From: Pseudovibrio sp. M1P-2-3 | GTDB lineage: Bacteria > Pseudomonadota > Alphaproteobacteria > Rhizobiales > Stappiaceae | Length of the DNA: 64,000 bases | Direction of reading: 5' to 3' | Assembly (NCBI RefSeq): GCF_031501865.1 | Contig: NZ_JARRCW010000001.1 | Span: forward strand, 3,059,001-3,123,000 | Shown: positions 41,039 through 48,871 of the stretch, piece by piece | How the letters are laid out: each line of letters starts with the position of its first letter | Numbering within the stretch: the first letter of the stretch is position 1 | Translations under genes and position numbers: made by a program | Notes under the pieces: generated by a model | Seen by the model: the letters and a program-made list of their open reading frames with translations, nothing else | Databases searched by the model: none | Told to the model about the DNA's origin: nothing

Positions 41039-41320
41039 CAAATACAGAACCAAAGCGAACACACCAAGAACCATGACAAACAGGAACCGAGTGTACAAAT
41101 TGGCAAAAGGGATTGGATCAAAGATTGGCTAAAATCTCTGAGAAGCTTCTTGGGTTAAGTCAATAGCACGTTAAATTGCCACGCAAATCAGCGAGCTATT
41201 CCATGGTCCTCTTGCAAATTTTCACCCCAGCCTTCTTTAGGAACAAGTCCAAAACGAGGCTGTGCGCTCCGTATTACTTTTGAAAATTTGGCCAGCCTAA
41301 GGCCAGGAAAGGGGAAGCAG
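41039..41320. other. Intergenic region before RTX gene 2
   Basis: No gene seen. Contains the promoter region of the second RTX gene. The ribosome binding site GGAAAGGGGAAG precedes the ATG at 41321. Confidence 0.45.
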
Positions 41321-43243
41321 ATGAGTACCGGAACATACAAAGGCAACGACAACGACAACTCCGAAGTCTGGAAAGGTTCTCACGCAGACCGTAACAACAC
41401 CATCAACTATTATGTCTATGGTTATGGTGGCAATGACAGTTTCAAGTTCACGTGGACCAAATCACACGACAGTGCCCGTTTCCAATCCCTCCACGCCTAC
41501 TTGGGCACCGGAGATGATTATCTACAGGTCAATTTGGAGGACAAGGAAGAGTACAGCAACTCACTGGAAATGGACATAGATGGTGAGCAGGGGGACGACT
41601 TTATCGAGGTTTCGAACGTCAAAGATAAAGGGGGAAATTCCCATATTATCCTGCGCGGAGGCTCTGGAAATGACACCATCTATGGAACCAAAGGCGCTGA
41701 TACCATCTATGGAGACTATGAAACTTCCGATAGTCCCCCCATTGCAGAAGTCTCCGTAAAATCAGGTAAGGAAATTCCCGATTACACCGATACCCCTTAC
41801 GACCCCGCCCTTTCCTATGATGATGTCATTATTGCAGGCCGCGGAGACGATTTGATCTACGCCGGCTTTGGCAATGATGTCGTTATCGGCGATGATGGGG
41901 ATGATACCATATACGGTGGTGACGGGGATGATTATATCAGTGGAGGCAACGGATCCGATACTATTTACGGAGAGGCAGGCAATGATTTCATCAACGTTGG
42001 TGATCGCACCGGATCTGACATTGACACTGTCTATGGCGGGGAAGGAGCCGACACCATTATTTCCGGAGGCATGACGGAACAGTATTCACTCAACGCTCCT
42101 ATGGAGTTTGACTGGCAGTCCTGGGGAATTGAGCGGGGCGGCGTAGGTGCCGTTCAGATGACGGAGCTCGTTCTCTCCACAGCTGGTGTTGCCAACCCTG
42201 GCTATGCTATTGCCATAGGAGCACTGGGATCTTATGCAACCCGTGTTCTGCTCAACTCTATCTCCAAGCAGGACTTTAAATCCCAAGTGATCAAGGACAG
42301 CAGTGACTATGTGCGCGTCGCTGATTTTGATCCGCGGGAGGATACGTTCATCTACGCAGCAACCATGTCCGATCACAACGGCCTGGGCTACTTCAAAGGG
42401 GATGTCAATCTTTCAGATGGATCCTATGAGCTTTGGACGGATGTAACCCAGCAAAGCAATGGCGGACTGCTGGCACAACTGCAATATGACACAGACTTGA
42501 TCTCCTACATTCAGCAGAGTTCCGGCTCTGGAGCGGCAAATACGGTTATTGCCAAGGATCTGTCTTATGGATTGATTGCCACTAACTTTAAAGTCACATA
42601 TTCCAACGGGACCTATTACGACAGCGACAGCAATGAACTGTCCAACGATCTGCTTGGCACTGTTGTTGGGATCGATCCGGACACGGAAGGGGATTTGACA
42701 CTTAAAGAGTCCCTAGATGACATAGACATGAAAGACGGTCAGACCATCTTGATGACAGGTGCCTACGGAAATCTGCTTCTGGAAGGCCAACAGATCAAGG
42801 AAGCCGGAGATTTATTTCTGGCCGGCTCAAACTTTTCCGACATAATATATGCCAAGAACCATCTAGCTTCCAACACGGTTGCCACCGCCTTTATGTACGG
42901 GTTTGATGGTGACGACCTGCTCTATGGCGGTGATCAAGCAGACATGATCTTCGCAGGCGAAGGCAATGACACTATGACAGGAAACGCAGGTGCAGACACC
43001 TTTGTTTTTGAAGCCAATGCCGGATTTGACACGATCAGCGATTTCACGGTTGGCGAGGACATAATAAGGTTCTATGGTAAGGATTATCCTGACCTAACTT
43101 ACGATGACCTTTCAATCACTCAGATTGATGACGATGCATCCCATACCGGTTTCAGCACGATTATCGCCTATGATGACAACCAGATTACGTTGACGGGCGT
43201 GGCCGCAGCCATCATCACCCAAGATGATTTCCAGTTCTCATAG
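41321..43243 (+). CDS. RTX calcium-binding repeat protein 2
   Basis: A 640-residue paralogue of the protein encoded at 39037, with the same order of parts: N-terminal conserved domain, GGxGxD repeats at about 115-245, a hydrophobic central segment, and a C-terminal repeat and secretion region (DNQITLTGVAAAI). The central and C-terminal parts are clearly more diverged than those of RTX gene 3, with many substitutions in every segment. The start at 41321 is chosen because a ribosome binding site precedes it; a longer frame from 41288 covers upstream DNA. It is followed by three small exported protein genes. Confidence 0.87.
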   Translation: MSTGTYKGNDNDNSEVWKGSHADRNNTINYYVYGYGGNDSFKFTWTKSHDSARFQSLHAYLGTGDDYLQVNLEDKEEYSNSLEMDIDGEQGDDFIEVSNVKDKGGNSHIILRGGSGNDTIYGTKGADTIYGDYETSDSPPIAEVSVKSGKEIPDYTDTPYDPALSYDDVIIAGRGDDLIYAGFGNDVVIGDDGDDTIYGGDGDDYISGGNGSDTIYGEAGNDFINVGDRTGSDIDTVYGGEGADTIISGGMTEQYSLNAPMEFDWQSWGIERGGVGAVQMTELVLSTAGVANPGYAIAIGALGSYATRVLLNSISKQDFKSQVIKDSSDYVRVADFDPREDTFIYAATMSDHNGLGYFKGDVNLSDGSYELWTDVTQQSNGGLLAQLQYDTDLISYIQQSSGSGAANTVIAKDLSYGLIATNFKVTYSNGTYYDSDSNELSNDLLGTVVGIDPDTEGDLTLKESLDDIDMKDGQTILMTGAYGNLLLEGQQIKEAGDLFLAGSNFSDIIYAKNHLASNTVATAFMYGFDGDDLLYGGDQADMIFAGEGNDTMTGNAGADTFVFEANAGFDTISDFTVGEDIIRFYGKDYPDLTYDDLSITQIDDDASHTGFSTIIAYDDNQITLTGVAAAIITQDDFQFS

Positions 43244-45437: not shown

Positions 45438-45620
45438 AGTTCCACAGATGTCCATCGTTTTTGACTGCCTTGTGAAAGTGCGACCCGAAGCATTATAGGT
45501 TTCAAGCCACGAACCCTTTAAAGCACATCGCGTTCATTCGCATTCACGCTGTGCACTCTAACTTATTTATTTTGAGCGAATTCTTGTCGTTTGATTGAAC
45601 CCAATCATACGGAACGCGCT
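45438..45620. other. Intergenic region before the IS110 element
   Basis: Mostly a full copy of repeat family A (45516-45620), truncated or interrupted on its right by the IS110 element. No gene seen. Confidence 0.5.
45516..45620 (-). repeat. Palindromic repeat family A, full copy interrupted by IS110
   Basis: Aligns with the copy at 11161-11266 in reverse orientation: hairpin CGCGTTCATTCGCATTCACGC then the AT-rich spacer, GAGCGAATTCTTGTCG, an imperfect TTTGATTGAA/CCAATCATA palindrome and GGAACGCGCT. In the other copy the sequence continues CTCTAG; here the IS110 element begins, so its target site is inside or at the edge of this repeat. Confidence 0.78.
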
Positions 45621-45690
45621 TGTCTTATGCTTTTTTAGTGCCTTCTGCGAATATAGGCCAATGGCCACCGTATTGAGTCGGGAGGGCAGT

Positions 45691-45826
45691 GGCGGTGGTC
45701 GGATCGGGACGCGCTAGGTCACAAGGGACCGTTTTAGAGTATGATCGGCCACCGTCTTCGCAACAGGCCTGAACGGATACGCAGCAGCCCAAAGCTCTGC
45801 ACGACAAGCATAGGATACTTGCGAAG
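45691..45826 (+). ncRNA. Candidate IS110 bridge RNA with readable guides
   Basis: Two folded units are visible. First: outer stem 45691-45705 with 45743-45757, inner hairpin GGTC/GACC near 45717-45729, and an internal loop with ACGCGCT (45709-45715) on the 5' side and TTTTAGAGT (45732-45740) on the 3' side. ACGCGCT equals the left flank 45614-45620; TTTTAGAGT is complementary to the right flank ACTCTAAA (46774-46781). Second: outer stem CTTCGCAA (45756-45763)/TTGCGAAG (45819-45826), inner hairpin GCAG/CTGC, ACGGATAC (45773-45780) equal to the right element end (46768-46775), GACAAG (45803-45808) complementary to the left end CTTGTC (45619-45624). This is the layout of target- and donor-binding loops. 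Confidence 0.75.
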
Positions 45827-46762
45827 ATGTCTGAGGTTACCATTGGTGTCGATATTTCGAAAGACCATCTTGATGTGTACTGCCTGCCGGATGAGCAGAG
45901 CAAGCAGTTTACCAATACAGCTGCAGGGTACAGACAGTTAAAAAGCTGGCTGAAAGGCCTGCCTGTCGCTCGAATTATTTTTGAACCCACAGGTTCTTAT
46001 CACGGCGCTTTTGAGTTGGCATTGTCGGGTTCCTATCCTCTGAGCAAAGTTAACCCATGGCAAGCACGCCGGTTTGCACAGGCCAAAGGCAAGAGGGCGA
46101 AGACGGACCGGATTGATGCGCGCCTGCTGGCCCAAATGGGGCACGATTTCCAGTTGGAACCAGACAAGCCAGTCGATGCAAGCCTATGTCATCTCAAAGA
46201 GATACGCGTTGCACGTCAAGCTCTTGTAAAAGAAGCCACGCAACTGGAGAACCGGTTGAAAACACAACGGGTGAACCTGGTTCGCAAACAGACACAGCAA
46301 CGCCTGAAACTCGTGCGAAAGCAATTGGAGGCCCTTAACGCCGAAACTCAAAAGCAAATTGAGCAGAGCCCTCAAAGGGCGCGGGCAGCAAAGATTTTAC
46401 ACTCTATTCCCGGGCTGGGACAGGTCGCCGTCGCGGCGCTGGTGATTGAAATGCCAGAGCTTGGACAATTATCCCGTAAACAGGCCGCTGCTCTGGCGGG
46501 GCTGGCCCCCATGACCCGCCAGTCAGGACGCTGGCGGGGCGCTGCTTTTATTCAAGCAGGGCGCAAGCCGGTACGCGATGCACTCTACATGCCTGCCGTT
46601 GTTGCCAGCCGTTATAATCCAGACCTGAAAGCCAAATACAACCAGATGCGAGCGGCTGGTAAGCCTCCCAAAATCGCCATAATAGCTCTCATGCGTAAGC
46701 TAATCGAACTGGCAAACGCTCTCATAAAAGCGGACCGGCAATGGCAACCAAAAACGGCTTGA
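45827..46762 (+). CDS. IS110-family transposase (bridge-RNA-guided recombinase)
   Basis: A 311-residue recombinase with an N-terminal RuvC-like DEDD domain (D9 in GVDISKD, E53 in FEPTGSY, D94 and D97 in KTDRIDARLL) and a C-terminal domain carrying the nucleophile S233 in MTRQSGRWRG, preceded by SIPGLGQVAVAAL. All catalytic residues are present and the gene is intact, so the element may be active. The start codon immediately follows the 3' strand of the last predicted bridge RNA stem, so the RNA and mRNA share this boundary. It uses RNA from its own left end to choose target and donor DNA. Confidence 0.93.
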   Translation: MSEVTIGVDISKDHLDVYCLPDEQSKQFTNTAAGYRQLKSWLKGLPVARIIFEPTGSYHGAFELALSGSYPLSKVNPWQARRFAQAKGKRAKTDRIDARLLAQMGHDFQLEPDKPVDASLCHLKEIRVARQALVKEATQLENRLKTQRVNLVRKQTQQRLKLVRKQLEALNAETQKQIEQSPQRARAAKILHSIPGLGQVAVAALVIEMPELGQLSRKQAAALAGLAPMTRQSGRWRGAAFIQAGRKPVRDALYMPAVVASRYNPDLKAKYNQMRAAGKPPKIAIIALMRKLIELANALIKADRQWQPKTA

Positions 46763-46777
46763 CCAAGACGGATACTC

Positions 46778-46817
46778 TAAAGCAGTGAGACGATTTATTG
46801 AAACCGTGCACTGCTTT
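46778..46817. repeat. Palindromic repeat family C
   Basis: Nested arms AAAGCAGTG and CACTGCTTT-like, with an inner ACGATTT/AAACCGT stem around ATTG. A similar nested palindrome with AAAGCGCT and AGCGCTTT arms lies at 52773-52811. It directly follows the IS110 right end. Confidence 0.65.
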
Positions 46818-46844
46818 AACTTTTTGTTTAGCCGCATGTCTTTG

Positions 46845-46877
46845 ACCGAAAGCCGGTATCCACTTTTCGGAGATACG
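46845..46877. repeat. Palindromic repeat family B, diverged copy
   Basis: Contains CCGAAA and TTTTCGG arms with GCCGGTATCCAC between and GATACGC to the right, the same elements as in the copy at 7057-7095. It ends just before the stop codon of RTX gene 3 and may terminate its transcript. Confidence 0.55.
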
Positions 46878-46879
46878 CT

Positions 46880-48871
46880 TTAGGAGAAAACGAAATCACT
46901 TTCAGAAAGTGAGCCTGAAGTAACGTCTTCCAAAGTGATCTGGTTATCTCCGTATTCAACTGTGGTGCTGTAACCGGATGTGGTTGTGTCATCCTCGACT
47001 TGTGTGATTGTCAGATCATCATAGGCCAGGTCCGGGTAGTCATCGCCATAGAACCTGATGGTATCCTCACCAACGGTGAAGTCGGTTACGGTGTCGTTGC
47101 CGGCATTGGCCTCGAATACGAAGGTGTCAGCATCACCGTATCCGGTCATGGTATCATCGCCTTCGCCGCCGAAGATATGATCTTTGGCGTCGCCGCCTTC
47201 AATCACGTCATCGCCGCCAAAACCATACATGTAACCTTTGGCTTGAGTATCATGAGTAACCGGATTTTTGGCATACATGGCATCGCCGTAGTTGGTACCT
47301 ACCATGTAAAGGTCTCCGGCTTCTTCCACTTCCTGACCAATCATGAACTGGCCGGAGTAGGCTCCGGTCATCAACATAGTCTGACCATCTTCCAGTCCCA
47401 TGCCGTCAAGGCTGTCTTGCAAGGTAATATCCGCGCCGGTGTCGGGGTCGGTATTCACAACCTGAGACAGGGCGTCGTCACTGATCCTATCGCCTTCGTC
47501 ATCGTGGTAGTGGCCCTCATGATAGGTGACCGAGAACCCGGTATTCATGACACCGGCTGCAAGATCTTTGGCAATGGTTGTTTCAGAAGCGCCGGTAGCC
47601 GATGTTTCCTGCAGATAATCAATCAAGTCATGGTCAAAATGCATCTGGGCAATCAAGCCGCCATTGCCCTGCTGGGTCACATCACTCCACAGCTCATAAG
47701 TGCCGCGGCTTTCGTTAATCATGCCTTTGAAGTAGCCAAGGGTATCGCCGTCAGTCAAAGTAGCGGTGTAGATGAACTGGTCTTCAAGCGGATTGAAGTC
47801 CTTCATGGAGACATAGTCACTGGAATCGGTCACCGTATAGGTGTTGTCACCGTCGCCGGAAAGGGCGTTTGACAGCGCTTGGGTTGCAAAGCTGCCAGCT
47901 ACGCCGAACATAACTCCTAACATGGGGTTGGCCATGCCGACCATTTCCAATCCCATTTGAGCGATTTCCAGACCGGTTTCCGCACCCTTTTCCGCACTAA
48001 ATCCCCCCCAGTCATATGGCTGTCCATCTTCACCGTAAAGATAATCGGCCTTCATGCCGCCGGTGATGATGGTATCAGCCCCTGCACCGCCATAGACCGT
48101 ATCAATATCCGAGCCGGTTCTGTCGCCCACATGAATGTAGTCGTTGCCATCGCCGCCGTAGATAGTGTCACTGCCGACACCGCCGAAAATCATATCATCG
48201 CCGTCACCGCCATAGATGGTGTCATCGCCTTTGTCACCGTAGATAGTATCATTGCCAACGCCCCCGTAGAGCGTGTCATCTCCCTTCCCACCGTAGATAA
48301 GATCGTCACCAAACCCGCCATAGACCAGATCATCTCCAGCGCCTGCGTCTATGAAATCGTTATAAGAGAGGGATGAATCGTATGCAGTGTCTATATAGTT
48401 AGGAATATCCATCCCGCTTTTGACGGATATTTCTCCAAGCGCAGGTGTGTCGGAGGTTTCATAGTCGCCGTAGATTGTGTCAGCACCTTTTGTGCCATCA
48501 ATAGTATCGTCACCGGAGCCGCCGCGTAAAATGATGGTCGAATTGTTGCCTTTATCCGAGACCGCAGAAACATCGATGATATCGTCACCTTGCTCTCCAT
48601 CGATATCCATATCCAAGGAAGCACTGTAATTGCTCGGGTCACTCAGATCGACTTCTATATAATCGTTTCCCTCTCCCATATAGGCATGAAGAGATTGAAA
48701 ATCTGCTGCCATTGACCCACTTGGTGCCATCATCCAGGAGAATTTGAAGTAGTCATCTCCTCCATACCCATAAGCATAGTAATTGAGGGTGCTATACTTA
48801 TATCCGTCTGTTCCCGTCCACTCGTTGAAGTCGTCTTTATTATCGTTGCCTTTATAAACTTTGGTAGCCAT
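46880..48871 (-). CDS. RTX calcium-binding repeat protein 3
   Basis: A 663-residue RTX protein on the opposite strand. From about its GGDGDDMIFGG repeat to the C terminus (46880 to about 48200) the DNA is almost identical to RTX gene 1 (about 39640-40960) in inverted orientation, whereas the N-terminal domain (first 110 residues) is clearly diverged and the repeat block is about two units longer. It has the same acidic composition, no signal peptide and C-terminal secretion region (YGDNQITLEDV). Ribosome binding site AAAGGA precedes the ATG at 48871. Confidence 0.88.
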   Translation of the reverse strand: MATKVYKGNDNKDDFNEWTGTDGYKYSTLNYYAYGYGGDDYFKFSWMMAPSGSMAADFQSLHAYMGEGNDYIEVDLSDPSNYSASLDMDIDGEQGDDIIDVSAVSDKGNNSTIILRGGSGDDTIDGTKGADTIYGDYETSDTPALGEISVKSGMDIPNYIDTAYDSSLSYNDFIDAGAGDDLVYGGFGDDLIYGGKGDDTLYGGVGNDTIYGDKGDDTIYGGDGDDMIFGGVGSDTIYGGDGNDYIHVGDRTGSDIDTVYGGAGADTIITGGMKADYLYGEDGQPYDWGGFSAEKGAETGLEIAQMGLEMVGMANPMLGVMFGVAGSFATQALSNALSGDGDNTYTVTDSSDYVSMKDFNPLEDQFIYTATLTDGDTLGYFKGMINESRGTYELWSDVTQQGNGGLIAQMHFDHDLIDYLQETSATGASETTIAKDLAAGVMNTGFSVTYHEGHYHDDEGDRISDDALSQVVNTDPDTGADITLQDSLDGMGLEDGQTMLMTGAYSGQFMIGQEVEEAGDLYMVGTNYGDAMYAKNPVTHDTQAKGYMYGFGGDDVIEGGDAKDHIFGGEGDDTMTGYGDADTFVFEANAGNDTVTDFTVGEDTIRFYGDDYPDLAYDDLTITQVEDDTTTSGYSTTVEYGDNQITLEDVTSGSLSESDFVFS

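Follow-up and report, generated by a model that had tools for sequence, protein, structure and literature searches.

Transposition of IS110-group insertion sequences is guided by bridge RNAs, and covariation between guides and targets has been described over thousands of elements (PMC11208160). Targeting of repeats by members of this group was documented earlier. In 2006, REP-targeting IS110 elements were mapped, with 7 of 7 copies of ISPpu9, 7 of 7 of ISPpu10, 6 of 6 of ISPa11 and 4 of 4 of ISRm19, the last from the alphaproteobacterium Sinorhizobium meliloti (PMC1525189). Natural re-direction of related elements has also been published, for ISEc11 and ISXne4, in work on seekRNA (PMC11187229).

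Here, we describe an element from Pseudovibrio sp. M1P-2-3 (genome of 4.96 Mb, 8 contigs), found in a 64,000-nt stretch of DNA, hereafter the window (G000:C1:3059001-3123000). Like IS621 of E. coli, also of the IS110 group, it combines a homologous transposase with conserved catalytic residues, a CT core, a long left end with a predicted bridge RNA (5' stem-loop, target loop, donor loop), a junction promoter and a palindromic-repeat target (PMC11208160, PMC11208158). It differs from IS621 in its guides and host, targets the tip of a ~105-bp TA-flanked repeat and is known from sequence alone. Its copies lie in a dispersed palindromic repeat, like those of ISPpu9, ISPpu10, ISPa11 and ISRm19, whose mapping, however, predates bridge RNAs (PMC1525189). 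IS4321 and IS5075 are related-family elements that likewise aim at transposon tips, but they belong to another group (IS1111) and address another transposon family, whereas the tips used here look like IS630/MITE ends (PMC8269217). ISEc11 and ISXne4 share with the present case that related elements with different guides occur at different guide-matched targets; in contrast, the window element and a remnant, L012, address opposite tips of the same repeat within one genome (PMC11187229).

The locus is read, with a probability of about 0.94, as an IS110-group insertion sequence that would form a circle, assemble a promoter at the circle junction and insert under bridge-RNA guidance into the tip of a dispersed repeat, by an IS621-like mechanism. 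This reading draws on the anatomy of the element, guide matches at most copies, guide-target covariation, covarying helices, catalytic residues and a junction promoter motif. The mechanism would be that of IS621, and repeat targeting by IS110 elements is already known.

Anatomy of the element and its predicted bridge RNA

The features of the locus, with the evidence for each, are listed below.

45521..45620 (+): target repeat, ~105 bp, interrupted by the element; its last C and TA lie at 46777-46779
45612..45618 (+): left target arm GAACGCG, matched at 6 of 7 positions by the left target guide
45619..46774 (+): IS110-group element, 1,156 bp, including the left core CT and ending just ahead of the right core; boundaries common to the copies in the host genome
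45619..45620 (+): left core CT (junction comparison)
45626..45631 (+): -10-like TATGCT, left half of the putative junction promoter (sequence)
45638..45826 (+): predicted bridge RNA, 5' end placed from the -10 (alignment of 34 left ends, covariation)
45657..45693 (+): 5' stem-loop, of which the window copy forms 8 of 12 pairs (covariation)
45691..45756 (+): target-binding loop with outer stem GGCGGTGG/CCACCGTC, GATC/GATC and upper stem GGTC/GACC (outer-stem covariation)
45706..45715 (+): left target guide GGGACGCGCT (guide/flank test, word search)
45732..45740 (+): right target guide TTTTAGAGT (guide/flank test, word search)
45756..45826 (+): donor-binding loop, base stem CTTCGC/GCGAAG (base-stem covariation)
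45773..45780 (+): left donor guide ACGGATAC, identical to the element's right end
45803..45808 (+): right donor guide GACAAG, complementary to the element's own first six bases
45827..46762 (+): IS110 transposase/recombinase, 311 aa, intact, DEDD (PF01548, E 2.7e-23; PF02371, E 1.1e-18)
46759..46764 (+): -35-like TTGACC overlapping the transposase stop codon; its 17-nt spacing to TATGCT arises only in the circle
46775..46776 (+): right core CT (junction comparison)
46777..46781 (+): right target CTAAA, the stretch read by the right guide
Target sequence of the element: GGAACGCGCTCTAAA

The transposase has both domains of the IS110 group, the DEDD RuvC-like domain (PF01548) and the Tnp domain (PF02371), and is similar to the solved structures of IS621 (8wt6, E 9.5e-38) and ISCro4 (9t56, E 2e-35). 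In the alignment to chain A of 8wt6, its D9, E53, D94, D97 and S233, with positions counted by hand from the printed alignment, line up with D11, E60, D102, D105 and S241, the catalytic residues named for IS621 (PMC11208158). The group is further marked by two loops with guides that match target and donor, core included, and by a promoter reconstituted across the circle junction, present here at the level of sequence. The superfamily and the Pfam domains are common to the IS1111 group, but there the bridge RNA sits in a long right end; the predicted RNA of the window element lies in a 208-nt left end and the right end measures 12 nt, the reverse of the IS1111 layout (PMC11208160), so that membership in that group is extremely improbable.

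The preliminary description of the locus had placed the element at 45619..46781. The left boundary stands, while the right one moves to 46774, followed by the core at 46775-46776, and the last five bases (CTAAA) are target DNA. Comparison of junctions bore out the proposed CT core at both boundaries. The four guide words named in that description each occur once and in order in the left end, at 45709 (ACGCGCT), 45732 (TTTTAGAGT), 45773 (ACGGATAC) and 45803 (GACAAG), and all have the partners claimed for them: ACGCGCT matches 45614-45620 directly at the left junction, TTTTAGAGT matches 46774-46781 (ACTCTAAA) at the right junction, ACGGATAC equals the right end and GACAAG complements the left end CTTGTC. 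The 3' stem of the RNA (TTGCGAAG) likewise stops directly before the ATG at 45827. An alternative way to write the left guide is GGGACGCGCT opposite GGAACGCGCT. That the element targets a dispersed repeat at its tip had been overlooked. When the left end was shuffled 20,000 times with dinucleotides preserved, ACGCGCT occurred in 424 shuffles, TTTAGAGT (8 of the 9 letters of TTTTAGAGT) in 82, ACGGATAC in 54 and GACAAG in 1,084, and none of the shuffles held three or more of the four words.

Folded singly, the window RNA reaches -69.2 kcal/mol (z -1.68), and 8 of 200 shuffles fold as well; this is only weakly better than shuffles, and the predicted structure rests on comparison with relatives. 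When strands were permuted between elements, pairing of the real 5' stem-loop exceeded that of the control (10.35 of 12 vs 8.11; 31 distinct; 0/20,000), even though the window copy's own stem forms only 8 of 12 pairs. The same was true of the target-loop outer stem (7.88 of 8 vs 6.76; 16 distinct; 0/20,000) and the donor-loop base stem (6.28 of 7 vs 5.72; 18 distinct; 4/20,000, with L012 and L104 left out). The order and layout of the predicted RNA agree with those of the IS621 bridge RNA (PMC11208158, PMC11208160). Consensus folding with RNAalifold on MAFFT alignments, one of them with 24 of the 34 left ends, was poor owing to a one-base offset of the target-loop stem in several of the rows, and helices were therefore tested by strand permutation. 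A search of the whole window with Rfam at the gathering score returned no matches, and at E<=10 the region 45500-46900 gave five sub-threshold matches, none to a bridge RNA family.

Several observations concern the neighbourhood. One of the sub-threshold matches, to the Brucella sRNA CI27 (30.6 bits, gathering 59.8, E 2e-4), covers 46744-46890 (-), which by eye is a palindromic repeat right of the element. Two similar proteins of ~650 aa with RTX-type glycine-aspartate repeats (by eye) converge around the element, at 41288-43243 (+) and 46880-48871 (-). Small ORFs of 167, 160 and 153 aa between 43631 and 45437 appear by eye to be tandem paralogues with signal peptides.

Guides and flanks in the host genome and in relatives

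The host genome carries 11 copies of the element at 99-100% identity, all with open frames. In one of them, L011, an insert of ~1.05 kb interrupts the left end after its first 16-17 nt; by eye, the start of this insert (L011/L018) resembles the IS630-like element beside L008. Among the ten copies without an interruption, only four columns vary, three of which set the window copy apart and one L004. Judging by these near-identical copies, the element has probably been active recently.

As in REP-targeting IS110 elements, most copies occupy one repeat position: 8 of the 11 left flanks read GGAACGCG-CT, at the same base and in the same orientation of the dispersed repeat, two read TATCGACACG-CT and one CAGCCCAGCG-CT. 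The left guide matches the flanks of L001 to L010 at 6, 6, 6, 6, 6, 6, 6, 5, 5 and 3 of 7 positions, and the right guide at 5, 6, 5, 0, 6, 5, 3, 4, 4 and 5 of 6. L011, whose interrupted left end was read by eye, has GGAACGCG-CT on the left (6 of 7) and CTCTAAAA on the right. The expectation that other copies lie at guide-matching sites thus holds for most of the ten further copies in this genome, nine of which score 3-6 of 6 on the right arm (L011 by eye). It fails for the left arm of L010 (3 of 7, little above chance) and the right arm of L004 (0 of 6). In L004, the right core is followed by TGTCTTTTCTG (CTTGTC...). This flank begins much like the left end of the element itself and could for that reason have been left behind by a previous insertion there. 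Four left-end remnants (L013, L014, L015 and L016) match the element for only 116, 90, 86 and 82 nt; their left junctions are like those of whole copies, and the match stops inside or just before the target loop.

A map of this kind might also arise without repeated guided insertion, if gene conversion or homologous recombination had carried an inserted element from one copy of the repeat to another, given that the repeat left of the element is common to eight copies. Right flanks, however, already differ by about the tenth base from the core, and the copies are spread over separate loci on a 4.6-Mb contig and on a second contig. Moreover, two copies sit at an IS630-like end and one at a site without a recognised repeat, all three beside CT-CTAA. 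Recombination as the source of the copies is thus highly unlikely, and guided insertion is the reading retained.

Relatives were drawn from searches of 16, 87, 397 and 385 genomes, 6 further loci and a plasmid sample of 18 records, taken from 40 listed of 2,411 with a match. Eleven loci were excluded because they were distant or had no complete left end (L036, L061-L063, L066, L068, L070, L072-L075). Five were dropped for want of a tblastn match (L064, L065, L067, L069, L071) and seven where the anchor failed (L077, L081, L085, L087, L088, L089, L091), while the own-genome loci L037-L060 stood outside the guide test. The 32 relatives obtained share 46-57% protein identity (best tblastn segment) with the window element, and their left ends align well with it and with the remnant L012. 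Guides were read from fixed alignment columns, with one element per distinct guide and two left-guide registers allowed alike in real and permuted pairs, and flanks were then permuted; the statistics ignore kinship between elements.

On the left, guides matched their own flanks at a mean of 5.10 of 7 positions vs 3.17 in permuted pairs (30 distinct guides; 0/50,000), and on the right at 4.81 of 6 vs 2.59 (21 distinct guides; 0/50,000). For example, the right guides of L080, L078 and L034 (reading CTTGATTA, CTCACAAA and CTACTGCA) stand against the flanks CTTGATTC, CTCACAGG and CTACTGCC, respectively, and the left guide of L086, GGAACTG, is identical to its flank. Left matches are weak (3 of 7) in L078, L095, L099, L104 and L108. 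An earlier anchor rule, which misplaced some guides, gave the same verdict (left 4.93 vs 3.12 of 7, 28 distinct; right 4.29 vs 2.31 of 6; 0/20,000 for both), and the alignment-based test is the one reported. A second anchor rule was not used, having misread the right guide in many rows by taking GGACC for GATC (right 3.45 vs 2.06).

This co-variation, far beyond permutation, supports the central claim of the preliminary description, that of an IS110 element whose guides can be decoded against its target and its own ends. It also bears on a rival idea, in which recognition of the repeat lies with the transposase protein and the left-end matches are inherited by-products. Near-constant targets within one lineage would give the same map in the host genome alone, but between relatives, guide words and flanks vary together on each side, and they do so even among the 18 distinct left guides whose right flank starts with CTCTA (5.33 vs 3.78 permuted; 0/50,000). 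Together with the RNA guidance demonstrated by IS621 biochemistry (PMC11208160), this leaves recognition by protein very improbable, and RNA-guided recognition remains the preferred reading.

Donor guides follow the ends of their own elements. In 30 of 33 elements, the right donor guide is complementary to the six bases at the element's start (misses: L032, L033 and L097), and in L031, L034 and L035 the pair has changed on both sides relative to the window, to CTTCTC with GAGAAG. The left donor guide ACGGATAC occurs in 32 of 33 rows of the anchor-rule table, a count that is not independent evidence because the rows were selected by an anchor inside it. The two left-guide registers lie one base apart, and by eye 14 of 17 second-register elements have no T opposite the core T, for which reason the core T may go unread in these elements.

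The target repeat, its two tips and IS630-like ends

A typical copy of the target repeat runs from TA and GAGCACATCGCG to GGAACGCGCTC and TA. At least 42 matches occur in the host genome, a lower bound because 40 of 87 candidates were scored. Unoccupied GGAACGCGCTCTAR sites number 34 (12 exact and 22 with one mismatch), compared with 7 for the reversed pattern; by their coordinates, at least two of the 22 lie in repeats occupied at the other side. Among 30 repeat loci examined, nine are occupied, by eight whole or interrupted copies and the remnant L014. Eight of these are evident in the table, and the ninth (L135, whose row shows the neighbouring repeat of the locus) was placed by coordinates. 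By eye, the left end of the repeat in the 30 rows, one of which repeats another, reads TAGAGC in 17, TAGAGT in 5, TAAAGC in 4 and otherwise in 4, while at the right end GGAACGCGCT, or a sequence close to it, precedes CTA in 18 of the 22 rows that are unoccupied.

The two copies at CGACACG-CT adjoin the end of an IS630-like element, which has DDE_3 in one frame (E 1.8e-30) and HTH_33 in another (E 3.5e-6). Its ends, GAGCGTGTCG and CGACACGCTC (the first also written TAGAGCGTGTCG), are followed by TA. Both kinds of target end in GCTC and then TA. The core CT is part of this GCTC, and what the right guide reads is the final C of the tip, the TA and the bases beyond. The target repeats may be miniature derivatives of IS630-type elements, though the likeness of their tips to the IS630-like ends is weak beyond GAGC.

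Within the clade, many targets look like TA-flanked tips (GCTC then TA) of IS630/MITE-type repeats, and CTCTA stands on the right flank in 22 of 33 elements. Inverted tips were searched for upstream of insertion sites in 42 rows, over two ranges with 200 shuffles each. L006, L007, L082, L092 and L109 gave 13-14 of 15 bases with 0/200 shuffles, and L003, L008, L009, L084 and L096 gave 1-6/200, some perhaps by chance given the many tests; nothing clear appeared in the remaining rows of the 42. These results thus fall short of extending the reading of targets as MITE tips to the whole clade. The pattern TAGAGCN{20,50}GCTCTA exceeded its control in G000 (19 vs 1), W02 (12 vs 1) and G663 (26 vs 8), and in the remaining 13 of the 16 records the control was equal or higher. 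Among the matches listed for G417 is the target sequence of L084 itself.

The opposite tip of the repeat is occupied by the remnant L012 (L012:1496-1695; C1:2393977-2394171), inserted at CGATGTA-CT. It is 83% identical to the element over 195 nt, the protein search found no transposase there, and it keeps both loops and all four guides, with GGATGTG as its left guide and the last donor-stem strand changed. The window guide matches 6 of 7 positions at the right tip (GAACGCG) vs 4 of 7 at the usual left tip (CGATGTG), and the L012 guide 6 of 7 at the usual left tip, 5 of 7 at its own flank and 4 of 7 at the right tip. Since the scores favour opposite tips, guide and addressed tip differ together within one genome, as read from a single guide pair. 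L012 is also a possible guide in trans. Two remnants without target guides, L015 and L017, lie at the left tip as well.

A bolder and unproven reading, which we regard as possible but rather doubtful, is that the whole alphaproteobacterial clade is specialised on the TA-flanked tips (GCTC then TA) of IS630/mariner-type elements and of the miniatures derived from them. In this view, the right guide would be mostly fixed on C-TA-R, that is, the last tip base and the TA duplication, and the left guide would track the tip that is common in the host. Remnants like L012, which lack a transposase, could then still act in trans, their different guide directing the recombinase already present in the genome to the opposite tip. 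In a literature search with subscription journals largely outside its scope, none of the titles listed dealt with a tip-specialist IS110 clade.

Putative junction promoter and proposed transposition cycle

Promoters across the circle junction have already been published for IS110-type elements (PMC11208160). In the window element, TTGACC-17-TATGCT exists only across the circular junction, which suggests that integrated copies would be mostly silent until excision. At 17-nt spacing, the -35 hexamer averages 4.37 of 6 in the circle vs 1.23 when integrated (35 distinct combinations), and the best of 16-18 nt gives 4.37 vs 2.17; the -10 scores 4.2 of 6.

By analogy with IS621, from which the circular form, RNA expression, binding and strand exchange are inferred, the element would excise as a circle that joins its right and left ends and would thereby assemble the promoter. 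Transcription of the left end from this promoter would yield the bridge RNA, to which the transposase would bind. The first loop is predicted to pair with the target, the left guide reading ...ACGCG-CT and the right guide CT-CTAAAA, and the second loop with the element's own joined ends (ACGGATA-CT-TGTC), whereupon the recombinase would exchange strands at the shared CT. As the guides spell the right tip of the ~105-bp repeat, the element would have spread mainly into copies of that repeat.

In summary, this is a natural, multicopy and readable case of probable RNA-guided insertion, with 11 copies of one guide set and 12 exact empty sites in the same genome, and the relatives supply matched guide-target pairs. 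Together, these allow the tolerance, drift and retargeting of guides to be tested in nature. The case also offers compact recombinases (311 aa) that have a donor code in common and differ in their target guides.
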